Shown here: piece by piece, positions 3-5,034 of the stretch | Layout: every line of letters begins with the position of its first letter | Numbering within the stretch: the first letter of the stretch is position 1 | Assembly (NCBI GenBank): GCA_011523735.1 | Contig: WTGB01000097.1 | Location: 62,001 to 126,000 of the forward strand | Direction: 5' to 3' | DNA length: 64,000 bases | Source of the DNA: Chloroflexota bacterium | Lineage (GTDB): Bacteria > Chloroflexota > Anaerolineae > Aggregatilineales > Phototrophicaceae | Position numbers and translations under genes: made by a program | The notes under the pieces: model-generated | Seen by the model: the letters and a program-made list of their open reading frames with translations, nothing else | Databases searched by the model: none | What the model was told of the DNA's origin: nothing

Positions 3-434
3 GAAGCCGATGGACGCGCCTATCAAATCGTGCAAAGCCTCATGGCCTTTGCGGCCGGCGGCATCTTCGGGGCCGGTGTTGGTCAGGGCTTTCCGGGCTA
101 CATTCCCGTCGTCCATTCCGATTTCGTCTTCGCCGCCATCGCCGAAGAATGGGGCTTGCTCGGCGTCGTCGGCATCTTGAGCTGTCTCGGCGTACTGGCT
201 TGGCGCGGTCTCGCCATCGCCTTGACCCATCCCGGCGCGGCCTTCCACAAGCTGCTCGCCGGCGCCATCACCTTGACGCTGCTGGTACAGGCGCTGATGA
301 TCATGGCCGGCGTCCTGAAGCTCCTGCCCCTCACCGGCGTTACCCTTCCTTTCATCAGCTATGGCGGCAGCTCCTTGCTCGCTTGCCACATCATGATTGG
401 TCTTTTGCTGCGCTTGTCAGCGGGGGCGCGCTAG
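3..434 (+). CDS. FtsW/RodA/SpoVE-family peptidoglycan polymerase, C-terminal part (5' end outside window)
   Basis: The frame is already open at the left edge, so only about 143 C-terminal residues are visible. They contain the SEDS-family hallmarks: a loop with FPGYIPVVHSDFVFAAIAEE, followed by hydrophobic helices and the near-terminal LPFISYGGSSLLACHI segment. SEDS proteins are membrane glycosyltransferases that polymerise lipid II with a partner class B PBP. The next gene starts one base after this stop and encodes such a PBP homologue, so the two are translationally linked. I cannot tell whether this is the division (FtsW) or elongation (RodA) paralogue from the fragment. Confidence 0.93.
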   Translation, partial: EADGRAYQIVQSLMAFAAGGIFGAGVGQGFPGYIPVVHSDFVFAAIAEEWGLLGVVGILSCLGVLAWRGLAIALTHPGAAFHKLLAGAITLTLLVQALMIMAGVLKLLPLTGVTLPFISYGGSSLLACHIMIGLLLRLSAGAR

Positions 435-1850
435 ATGCTTTTCAAGCGCCAAATCCGCCATATCCTCTTCGCTGTGCTCGCTGGTCTGGCGCTGGTCGGC
501 TTGTCCGCGGCCTACTGGGCGATCGCCGGGCGCGATAACCTGCTGCTTCGGGAAGATAATCCGCGCCGTATCGAGGCTCTCGCTCGCATCCAACGCGGCG
601 GCATATTTGACCGCAACAGCCAAGTACTCGTTGAAACGGTCGCCTCCGATTCGGGTCTGGCCCGCCGCTACCTGGAATCCTCAACCTACAGCCTTACCGG
701 CTACTACAGCCTGCGCTATGGCGTCGGCGGCGCGGAAGCGGCTTACGACGATATCTTGGCAGGCGCGCGCAGACTCGAAACACTGGCCGATTATTTCAAC
801 AATTATATTTTGCGGCTGCCGCAAATCGGGGCTGACATCATGCTGACCGTTGACGCGGAGATTCATAAGGCGCTGGTTGATGCGATGACCGGCACAAGCG
901 GCGCGGCCATCGTTATGGACGCGGAATCCGGCGAACTCCTCGCGCTGCTTAGCCTGCCCAGCTTTGACCCAAACCGACTTGACGCCGACTGGGGCATACT
1001 AGTAGAAACCGAGGGCAATCCCTTCTTCAATCGCGCACTGCAAGGCAACTATCAACTCGGTGGCAATATCTATGCCCTGTGGCTGGCGCAAGCCGTTGAT
1101 GCTGCATTCGAGTTATCCTTGCGCTTCACCGGCGGGACCGAGCCGATCACATTGGATGATGGCACCGCGATTCACTGCGTCATTCAGCCCGCTCCCGCCG
1201 ATCTCACTTTGACCGAGGCATTCGGCTTTGGTTGCCCCGCCCCTTTCAAGAGTTACCAGCAAATGCAGTCCGCAGCCGACACCGACGACCTGATATCGTC
1301 TTATCATTTCTCAGATCCGGTCGTCCTGCCCGGCTTTCCGCAGCCAGAGCCACTCCCCGAGCCCGCCACAACCAGCGAACTTGAGCCCGAAGCGCTTGCC
1401 CTGCGCAATGCTCTCGGACAAGGCAACCAGACTACGACGCCCCTGCATCTCGTCACTATCATCGCGGCATTCGCCAATGACGGCGTCGCCATCGCCCCCT
1501 GGCTGTACGCTGCCCAGCGTCAACCCGGCACAGACGAATGGATCCGGCAGCCACCCAACTCGGAATCGCTCCCTATGCTGAACGCCGCAACCGCTCGCAA
1601 AATGCGCACTCTGCTGCGCGATGCTTGGGGCATTCTGTATGGCGAACCGCCTCATCCACACATCGAGGTCGGCACATACCTGGCCATGTCCCGCTCCGGC
1701 GACGAAACGCAATTATGGCTGAACGGCTTCGTTGCGCCAGAAAACGGGAGTCCCGCTGCTTTTGTCATCCTGCTGGAAGACAGCGCCGATGTGGCCCATC
1801 TGCTTAGGATCGGCCGCGCCCTGATCGAAGCCCTCAGCCAGTCAGCCTAG
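435..1850 (+). CDS. Class B penicillin-binding protein homologue lacking all three catalytic motifs (predicted pseudoenzyme)
   Basis: 471 residues. One N-terminal membrane helix (about 8-30) is followed by the PBP dimerisation region (RGGIFDRN at 54-61, YYSLRYGVGGAEAAYD at 90-105) and a transpeptidase scaffold (SGELLALLSLPSFDPN at 165-180; NALGQGNQTTTPLHLV at 325-340). Aligned on the invariant NRALQG (199-204), the catalytic SxxK becomes G210-N-I-Y213. The SxN motif becomes G266-C-P268, and the KTG motif is replaced by T414-Y-L. The reading frame is intact, so this is not simple gene decay. It starts directly after the SEDS gene stop and probably acts with that protein. Inferred role: a non-catalytic partner or activator of the polymerase, with no transpeptidation or beta-lactam acylation. 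Confidence 0.85.
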   Translation: MLFKRQIRHILFAVLAGLALVGLSAAYWAIAGRDNLLLREDNPRRIEALARIQRGGIFDRNSQVLVETVASDSGLARRYLESSTYSLTGYYSLRYGVGGAEAAYDDILAGARRLETLADYFNNYILRLPQIGADIMLTVDAEIHKALVDAMTGTSGAAIVMDAESGELLALLSLPSFDPNRLDADWGILVETEGNPFFNRALQGNYQLGGNIYALWLAQAVDAAFELSLRFTGGTEPITLDDGTAIHCVIQPAPADLTLTEAFGFGCPAPFKSYQQMQSAADTDDLISSYHFSDPVVLPGFPQPEPLPEPATTSELEPEALALRNALGQGNQTTTPLHLVTIIAAFANDGVAIAPWLYAAQRQPGTDEWIRQPPNSESLPMLNAATARKMRTLLRDAWGILYGEPPHPHIEVGTYLAMSRSGDETQLWLNGFVAPENGSPAAFVILLEDSADVAHLLRIGRALIEALSQSA

Positions 1851-1866: not shown

Positions 1867-4800
1867 CTAGCCAAGATAGTCGATACCCCGATTTGCCAGC
1901 GCCTCGTTAAATGCTGCGATCGCCCCACGCCGCAATTCATCGAACTTGTCAATCTGCGCCTGTATCTCGCCTGACAGCTTCTCAAAGACCTTGTAGGCTT
2001 GGACAGTCGGCGGAAACTCGCCCAAGCCCACCACCGATGGCAGCCCGCTCAAGCGACGCAGCGTATCGGTCCCGTGATTCGCGCGGCCGGGCCAGCCCTC
2101 GGGCAAGTCCGGTATGAATATGCCCGATTCAATCTCTCGCACTTGCGCCTTGAGTTCAGCCGCTTGAGCAGCCAATTCCGATCCCGCGCCATCTTCCGAC
2201 AGCCGTTCTTCCAGGCTCCCCAACTGCGCGCGGTACCGGCGCATCGTATTGATAGTCTCGGTCGCCTCCGCATAACAGCGATAAATGCGCATCATCAGGT
2301 CATACTGCGCTTTTAAGTCCTCATCGGAAGCTGACGAAGTCGCATCCTTAACCAACTCGAAAACCTGCGTCTGCGTCTCAGCGCCAAGCACGAGCGTCAG
2401 TTGGTAGCGGCCGGGCGGAACCGTCGGTCCCGCCATGCGCTCAAATTGCGGATCTTTCCCGTTGAGCGCTGGCGATGTCGGCAAGCGCATATCCCATACA
2501 AACCTGTTCCAACCCGCCTTCGCCGTCAGATAGACAATCGACTTATCCGGCTTTTCCTTCTGCTTCTTGCGTTCCGCCTCATCCAAGCTGCTGAATTCAT
2601 TGAGCAACTCACCCTCAGCATCGCGTATCGTCAGTTTGACCTTGCCTTCCGGCTTATCGTTCAAATAGTAAGTTATCAGCACCCCGCGCGGCAGATTCTC
2701 ACCTGAATCCAAAAATTGCCGCTCCACCACATTCTCCGGCGTAACCACGTGCGTATAGGCTGCCATAATGCCGGTCGAACTCTGATAAGTCTTGCCGGGC
2801 TGATCAACCAAACGCCGGGCATCAATGCTTTCCAAAAGGCGCTGCGTATCCCGCGGCTCAAGCAGCAGCGCTTCATGATCCTGCCAGTCATCATCCAACT
2901 GCCGCAAGCGCGTCAGATCATCCAAAATCCAGAAGGACCGCCCATGAGTCGCGGCGATGAGGTCACTGCCCTTCACCAGCAGGTCGTGAATCGGCGTCAC
3001 TGGCAAGTTCAACTGAAAGCGCTGCCAGCTTTCGCCATCGTCAAATGAGATATAGACGCCCGTCTCCGTGCCGGCGTACAGCAGGCCTTGACGAACCGGA
3101 TCACAGCGAATGACTCGCGTGAAGTCCTCCGGCGCTATGCCCTCATTGACCCGCGTCCAGCTTTGTCCATAGTCATTCGTCTTGTACAAGTAGGGCGAAT
3201 AATCATCATGCTTGTAACGTATCGCCGCCAAATAGCAAGTCGCCGGATCATGCGGCGAAAGCTCCAACATGCTCACCATCGACCACTCGGGCAAACTGCT
3301 TGGTGTTATCTCGCTCCAAGTCTCGCCATTGTCCTTCGTGATATGCAGCAAGCCGTCATCCGACCCGGCCCAAATTACACCGGGCACATGCGCCGACTCC
3401 GCCAGCGAAAACACCGTGGCATAAACTTCCGCGCTCGCTCCCTCGCGATTTATGGGACCGCCCGAGACCCCCAGCGTCGCCGGATCAGCCCGAGTCAAAT
3501 CGGGGCTTATCGGCTCCCAGCTATGTCCCTCATTCGTCGACTTAAACACCATGTTCCCGCCGATATACAGCGTATCAGGATCATGCGGGGAGAAGACAAT
3601 GGGATAGGTCCAGGCGAAACGATACTTCGAATCAGCCGCCGCTTCACCCGATGTCGTCTCAGGCCAGGTCGTCACCAGCCGCAATTGCTTGCTGCCATGG
3701 TCGTAGCGCTGCAGGCAATTGCCACCTCCGGGCGAGCTCCCTATCGCGCCGACAAAGATGATATCGTCGTTATCCGGCTTCACCGCGATATAGCCGCTCT
3801 CGCCCGAGCCGGCGATGAAGCCATCCATCCACATCAGCGATGACTTCTCGTTGCGGCTCGGCACGGCGATGCTGCTGTTGTCCTGCTGCGTCCCATACAC
3901 AAAATAGGGATCGCGATTATCCGCCGCCACATGATAAAACTGCGCCGTCGGCTGATTGAATATAGACGACCAGGTAGCGCCGCCGTTCAAGGACACGCAG
4001 GCGCCGCCATCGTTGCCTTGCACCATGCGCTTGGGATTCTTCGGGTCGATCCACAAATCATGATTATCCCCGTGCGGCGTGCCAATCATTTGGTAGGTGC
4101 GCCCCCCGTCAATCGATTTCCAGAAGCGCAAGTTGTTGACGTAAACTGTGTCCGCATCTTGCGGATCAGGCGTCACGTGCATGTAATACCAGGCGCGCGA
4201 GATGATGTCGTTGTTGCGGGCCACAAATTTCCAGCTGTCGCCGTAATCATCCGAGCGGTACATGCCGCCTTCTTCATGCTCGACCAAGGCGTAGACACGG
4301 CCCGCCTGCGCCGGCGATGCCGCGATGCCAACCTTGCCCAAGATGCCCGCTGGCAATCCCTCCTTCGTCGAGATGTTCTCCCAACTGTCCCCGCCATCCA
4401 ACGAACGCCAGATGCCGCTGTCCTCGCCGCCGCTGCTCATCATGTGAAAGCTGCGATAGCATTCCCAAACGCTAGCGTAAATGATGCGCGGATTATTGAC
4501 ATCAATGCTGAGGTCCACCGCCCCGGCTTTATCGCTGACGAAGAGGACCTGCTCCCAGTTCGCGCCGCCGTCGGTCGAGCGGAACACCCCCCGCTGTTGA
4601 TTGCGCCCGAAGGCATGACCCAAAGCCGCGACAAACACCGTATCCGGGTCCTGCGGGTGAACGCGTATCTTGCCGATATGCCGCGTGTCTTCCAAGCCCA
4701 TGTGCCGCCAACTCCGCCCGCCATCAGTCGACTTGTAGACGCCATCGCCATGCGAGACATCAATGCGGATGGTCGCCTCGCCCATCCCGGCGTAGATCAC

Positions 4801-5034
4801 ATTGGGATCAGCTTCCGAGACGGCCAGCGCGCCAACAGAGGCTGTATTGAAGAACCCATCGGAGATGCACTGCCAATACTGTCCCGCGTCTTCAGTTTTC
4901 CAGACGCCGCCCGCGCAGGCGCCGAAGTAGAATGTACCGAGTTCGGTGGGATGGCCGGCGACGGTTACGACGCGTCCGCCGCGGAAGGGTCCAATACAGC
5001 GCCAACATCCGATATTGTCGAGGGGAAGGTTCAT
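1867..5034 (-). CDS. BNR/sortilin-type (VPS10-like) beta-propeller repeat protein, 1055 aa
   Basis: Repeated Asp-box-like units (KSTDGGRSW, RSTDGGANWEQV, RSLDGGDSWENIS, KSIDGGRTY, KSTNEGHSWEPIS, KDNGETWSEI, KTNDYGQSWTRV, SFDDGESWQRF) run through residues about 45-720, enough for two propellers. After that come a beta-rich segment and a helical C-terminus (about 900-1040). The family resembles the WD40/YVTN/BNR-like 'glycosyl hydrolase' proteins related to plant photosystem II stability factor HCF136 and sortilin. The catalytic residues of true sialidases are not evident. No signal peptide is visible: the N-terminus MNLPLDNIGCWRCIGPFRGG starts directly in the first blade. The substrate is unknown. 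It converges with the PBP-like gene upstream, with 16 bp between stops. Confidence 0.8.
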   Translation of the reverse strand: MNLPLDNIGCWRCIGPFRGGRVVTVAGHPTELGTFYFGACAGGVWKTEDAGQYWQCISDGFFNTASVGALAVSEADPNVIYAGMGEATIRIDVSHGDGVYKSTDGGRSWRHMGLEDTRHIGKIRVHPQDPDTVFVAALGHAFGRNQQRGVFRSTDGGANWEQVLFVSDKAGAVDLSIDVNNPRIIYASVWECYRSFHMMSSGGEDSGIWRSLDGGDSWENISTKEGLPAGILGKVGIAASPAQAGRVYALVEHEEGGMYRSDDYGDSWKFVARNNDIISRAWYYMHVTPDPQDADTVYVNNLRFWKSIDGGRTYQMIGTPHGDNHDLWIDPKNPKRMVQGNDGGACVSLNGGATWSSIFNQPTAQFYHVAADNRDPYFVYGTQQDNSSIAVPSRNEKSSLMWMDGFIAGSGESGYIAVKPDNDDIIFVGAIGSSPGGGNCLQRYDHGSKQLRLVTTWPETTSGEAAADSKYRFAWTYPIVFSPHDPDTLYIGGNMVFKSTNEGHSWEPISPDLTRADPATLGVSGGPINREGASAEVYATVFSLAESAHVPGVIWAGSDDGLLHITKDNGETWSEITPSSLPEWSMVSMLELSPHDPATCYLAAIRYKHDDYSPYLYKTNDYGQSWTRVNEGIAPEDFTRVIRCDPVRQGLLYAGTETGVYISFDDGESWQRFQLNLPVTPIHDLLVKGSDLIAATHGRSFWILDDLTRLRQLDDDWQDHEALLLEPRDTQRLLESIDARRLVDQPGKTYQSSTGIMAAYTHVVTPENVVERQFLDSGENLPRGVLITYYLNDKPEGKVKLTIRDAEGELLNEFSSLDEAERKKQKEKPDKSIVYLTAKAGWNRFVWDMRLPTSPALNGKDPQFERMAGPTVPPGRYQLTLVLGAETQTQVFELVKDATSSASDEDLKAQYDLMMRIYRCYAEATETINTMRRYRAQLGSLEERLSEDGAGSELAAQAAELKAQVREIESGIFIPDLPEGWPGRANHGTDTLRRLSGLPSVVGLGEFPPTVQAYKVFEKLSGEIQAQIDKFDELRRGAIAAFNEALANRGIDYLG

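Follow-up and report, generated by a model that had tools for sequence, protein, structure and literature searches.

What is left for a class B penicillin-binding protein (PBP) to do once its catalytic residues are gone? The question is raised by an open reading frame (ORF) in a 64,000-nucleotide stretch of a Chloroflexota draft genome (4.37 Mb; completeness 95%), the whole of which (G000:C150:62001-126000) we refer to as the window. The frame is intact over 471 residues, as initially annotated, and its product is a homologue of the PbpA-type class B PBPs that lacks the SxxK, SxN, and KTG motifs of an active DD-transpeptidase. We think it probable that this protein is a conserved pseudo-transpeptidase, descended from a PbpA-type class B PBP, which serves as a non-catalytic partner or activator of the cell's third SEDS glycosyltransferase, with cross-links supplied in trans.

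The assignment to the PbpA type is based on both of its domains, each above its curated Pfam cut-off (PBP_dimer_2, the PbpA dimerisation domain, 31.4 bits versus 27; transpeptidase, PF00905, 41.3 bits versus 22.1), and on the presence at the locus of a SEDS partner and of genes with forkhead-associated (FHA) domains. The sequence profile matches many PBP structures, the best solved relatives being M. tuberculosis PbpA and proteins like it (E about 1e-62 to 1e-71; 9e-63 against M. tuberculosis PbpA). The initial annotation had read GNIY at the former SxxK site and GCP at the former SxN site, and alignment bears out both; its TYL at the former KTG site is one residue off, because the wider family, from whose alignment we read these residues directly, gives YLA, but the motif is replaced in either case and the shift is immaterial. 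The family scaffold that it quoted (RGGIFDRN, LSLPSFDPN, NRALQG, and GQGNQTTTPL) is all present. Among 71 full-length pseudo-members the serine place of SxxK is occupied by G, A, S, T, and others, while the lysine place is never Lys. Judged from sequence, the protein almost certainly has no catalytic activity, as had been proposed.

This loss is shared widely among uncultured Anaerolineae. The gene was found at E < 1e-40 in 54 of 61 genomes (the window's own and its relatives), and among the 53 order-level orthologues that were fetched, from eight families, not one has the triad or even a single intact motif; because of this the pattern, as read from the alignments, is far beyond chance. A wider search, through 120 genomes from the class and 151 from the phylum, turned up 63 aligned orthologues in which the S and K of SxxK are present; these belong to four families of the same class and to nearly all sampled families of other classes. 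Because the other Chloroflexota orthologues are thus mostly intact, the loss of catalysis took place inside the phylum. In a tree computed without the motif columns, 53 pseudo rows fall in one branch (SH-aLRT 89) and eight others lie outside it, and the well-supported branches require at least two changes of catalytic state. These data indicate a loss that happened at least twice and is ancient in this order. One of the losses, in a genus of family f14 (G066 and G135), is recent and independent: L071 is an intact PbpA and L090 lacks SxxK and about 100 residues with SxN, retaining KTG. The initial annotation had suggested comparing relatives at the same locus, where intact motifs would have spoken for decay in this strain only; recent decay is rejected by the 53 orthologues, the tree, and the substitution ratios that follow. 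A single-protein search for related loci returned only two named orthologues, both from Anaerolineae metagenome-assembled genomes.

The pseudo-PBP is under purifying selection. In close pseudo pairs its ratio of nonsynonymous to synonymous substitution rates (dN/dS) is 0.10-0.36, against 0.04-0.18 for the SEDS proteins of the same genomes; the resulting PBP/SEDS ratio of 1.3-2.8 (about two) compares with 2.1 in an active control pair. What is conserved has shifted: mean identity in the pedestal is 0.453 among pseudo-members versus 0.349 among active ones, and conservation of the KTG strand is 0.331 versus 0.540, where the evidence is the relative shift and not the absolute values, the active set spanning a wider taxonomy.

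The gene's inheritance is tied to that of its SEDS neighbour. The adjacent SEDS polymerase gene named in the initial annotation begins outside the window (G000:C150:61118-62434, 438 aa; PF01098, 252.9 bits), and its stop codon directly abuts the PBP ATG. We take its Asp335 as the equivalent of FtsW D297 in extracellular loop 4 (PMC8765783), so that, by alignment, the pair includes a SEDS protein with a putative catalytic Asp. Both genes occur in 53 of the 61 genomes and neither in seven (G007, G015, G021, G028, G030, G050, and G060); in the one left over, G058, the PBP stands alone, and only a fragment of it is present, where a short contig ends. Two genomes (G048 and G053) retain both genes although on different contigs. 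At 22 distinct loci in ten families the two are fused, counting only cases in which SEDS and PBP share one ORF (other long PBP ORFs are upstream-extended frames), and at 21 of the 22 the PBP is a pseudo-member. In families f11 and f34 a stretch of the fused PBP that includes the SxN region, about residues 220-327, is missing, and the transmembrane segment, the pedestal, and the C-terminal end are kept, as would be expected if SEDS needs the membrane and pedestal part. Fusion does not require catalytic loss, because L119 (family f100) has an intact, active-looking PbpA fused with SEDS in one ORF.

The combination of co-absence, co-retention, fusion, conservation shifted to the pedestal, and an intact SEDS Asp is why we favor a structural partner or activator, the role that had been predicted. 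RodA and FtsW polymerise only with their class B PBP, which acts by conformational change (PMC10257715). By analogy with such pairs, the pseudo-PBP would be made together with the SEDS glycosyltransferase, most likely bind it through its membrane helix and pedestal, and hold it in, or switch it to, an active state while cross-linking nothing itself; the strands produced by the pair would then be cross-linked in trans by other PBPs. Several points weigh against this view or limit it. The pair is dispensable in seven relatives; several of the co-absences fall in one sub-clade, so that the independent events number fewer than seven; an AlphaFold2 model of the pseudo-PBP, built from only three sequences, has a pLDDT of 36, too low to bear on fold or interface; and the conservation comparison loses force because the active sequences are drawn from a broader range of taxa.

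Alternatively, one could envision that the degenerate domain has been repurposed as a receptor or regulator, binding a wall fragment, lipid II peptide, or protein and thereby gating SEDS or the neighboring FHA-domain proteins, which would demand a new ligand rather than a scaffold alone. The former SxN loop has become an invariant Cys...CysPro signature instead of drifting, and an FhaA-like and an FhaB-like gene lie just upstream, both of which would suit a receptor or regulator; however, f11 and f34 have lost that region entirely and keep the rest. Moreover, equivalents of Cys248 and Cys267 are present in M. tuberculosis PbpA and in some active orthologues, so that the pair, which may form a disulfide, is probably an inherited structural feature, and we consider a receptor unlikely. 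The same cysteines bear on whether the protein is a transpeptidase of new chemistry with Cys267 as nucleophile. The residue is invariant, but it is the central residue of SxN, a position at which Cys is also found in many active PBPs (SCN), it appears to pair with Cys248 as in PbpA, and the truncated lineages are without it; of all the explanations this is the one to which we give least credence.

The pair could also make a glycan that is not cross-linked or is not peptidoglycan, such as an envelope polysaccharide, for which no transpeptidase would be necessary. Its dispensability would suit such a product, as would a glycosyltransferase-like ORF and two multi-span membrane ORFs (so read from the ORFs) still farther upstream. 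On the other hand, the alignment of this SEDS with FtsW/RodA is close and its Asp is retained, and in the active orthologues of the phylum the same SEDS type is paired with a normal transpeptidase, which makes another glycan, in our judgment, somewhat less likely again than a receptor. Finally, the loss of every catalytic residue, and the faster evolution of the PBP relative to its SEDS partner, might suggest a functionless, decaying pseudogene. This is contradicted by the intact frame, the residues invariant in orthologues, a dN/dS well below 1, coupled inheritance, and the fusions, and we regard it as very improbable.

If the pseudo-PBP is a non-catalytic partner, which enzymes cross-link? 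The initial annotation had allowed for either another enzyme or a non-standard wall and had called for a count of the active class B PBPs elsewhere in the genome. That count gives an intact PBP2 (SVWK, SCD, KTG) and two intact MecA-type PBPs (SVYK and SVMK; SCN, KTG); three class A PBPs, all intact, and three YkuD proteins are also encoded. A wall without cross-linking enzymes is rejected on this inventory, and because these enzymes remain a non-standard wall is not needed. PBP2 is likewise intact in 30 of 30 genus members, and the MecA-type PBPs are intact at all 20 loci sampled from relatives and, in addition, in the window's genome. The question of cross-linking by another enzyme is nevertheless sharper now, because the genome's FtsI (L001:769-2514, + strand; G000:C20:69179-70924) is itself degenerate (SLMQ, SLD, KPG), while its FtsW keeps the Asp (HTDSIF). 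Of 31 genus members examined, 30 have Gln or Leu in place of the Lys of the FtsI SxxK and KPG, KAG, or MPG in place of KTG; the sole exception, G033, is the deepest member of the genus and has intact motifs. As FtsI is also intact in all 48 sampled outside the genus (19 of 19 from the order's other genera and 29 of 29 in the class sample), the simplest account is a single inactivation within this genus.

Two MecA-type proteins are found in 32 of 33 genomes of the dead-FtsI group, compared with one in G033 and in 21 of 27 other relatives. This doubling is only suggestive, because it represents one evolutionary event, but it agrees with what is seen in B. subtilis, where PBP3 makes up for an inactive PBP2B (PMC5656894), and MecA-type PBPs could likewise supply the cross-links for the dead FtsI. 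We tentatively raise the possibility, on which we stop short of even confidence, that the genus has three class B PBPs paired with SEDS proteins and that two of them, the PbpA type and FtsI, are pseudoenzymes, such that septal and third-pair strands are polymerised by SEDS proteins with activating-only partners and cross-linking is permanently outsourced to the MecA-type PBPs, which are duplicated; polymerisation and cross-linking would then be split in nature. As a separate observation, G003 (L019) and G007 share 98% identity in FtsI and G007 is without the pair; G003 nonetheless has a pair, resembling that of the G019/G018/G001 group (71-72%), which may reflect a misbinned contig or horizontal transfer.

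The window locus is similar to the actinobacterial FhaA-FhaB-RodA-PbpA locus. M. tuberculosis PbpA (PDB 3un7, 3lo7) shares with our protein a close profile match (E about 1e-62), PBP_dimer_2, a SEDS gene directly upstream, FHA genes upstream, and both Cys; in contrast, it is an intact transpeptidase. The loci differ as well: here a methylthioadenosine-phosphorylase-like gene separates the second FHA gene from SEDS, and, unlike at the actinobacterial locus, the stretch that was read showed neither a kinase nor a phosphatase gene. In B. subtilis, inactive PBP2B S309A supports division, with activity coming from PBP3, a relative of PBP2A/MecA (PMC5656894); a SEDS-paired class B PBP without catalysis and a MecA-type cross-linker is the arrangement proposed here, but that protein is an engineered divisome mutant, whereas ours is natural, ancient, and found in many species. 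In C. difficile the catalysis of SpoVD, the partner of SpoVE, is partly dispensable (PMC12713402), and SpoVD S311A is thought to retain SEDS activation; this mutant, too, is engineered, and it is specific to sporulation. Engineered inactive class B PBPs are thus already known, and what is described here is a PbpA homologue that lies outside the active transpeptidases. We found no report of a natural pseudo-class B PBP that is ancient, widespread, and fused to SEDS in the open-licence PMC literature, an incomplete set.

Whether SEDS activation and cross-linking by class B PBPs are separable has so far been studied with engineered mutants. Evolution appears to have separated the two jobs, kept them apart across many families, joined the pseudo-PBP and the polymerase in one chain, and cut back the domain no longer in use, and the trimmed fusions point to the minimal activating part of a PBP. 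Because FtsI is dead in the genus, that question can be put to the test for cell division as well, and the loss predicts which PBPs beta-lactams really target in these bacteria.

Table 1. Coordinates of the features in the window and the evidence for each.
Feature	Position	Strand	Evidence
Pseudo-transpeptidase of 471 aa, homologous to PbpA-type class B PBPs, no catalytic triad	435..1850	+	ORF list, Pfam, orthologue alignments
SEDS glycosyltransferase, C-terminal part	3..434	+	PF01098, 153.2 bits on the fragment
Putative catalytic Asp335 of SEDS (VVHSDFVFAA)	120..122	+	Conserved in 128/128 aligned SEDS proteins
Likely transmembrane segment, residues 10-32	462..530	+	Hydrophobic stretch by inspection; present in orthologues
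N-terminal pedestal/dimerisation region, residues 33-136	531..842	+	PBP_dimer_2 at residues 54-113
Former SxxK site, G210-N211-I212-Y213	1062..1073	+	Alignments
Invariant Cys248	1176..1178	+	71/71 full-length pseudo-members; M. tuberculosis PbpA 3un7 also Cys here
Former SxN site, G266-Cys267-Pro268	1230..1238	+	Cys267 and Pro268 invariant, 71/71
Former KTG site, Y415-L416-A417	1677..1685	+	Alignments including wider family

One of the two FHA genes upstream of the methylthioadenosine-phosphorylase-like gene carries FhaA_N. Immediately downstream of the PBP gene and convergent with it, the window encodes (1867-5034, - strand) a 1055-aa protein with BNR/Sortilin-Vps10-like repeats, of which the C-terminal part was scanned.
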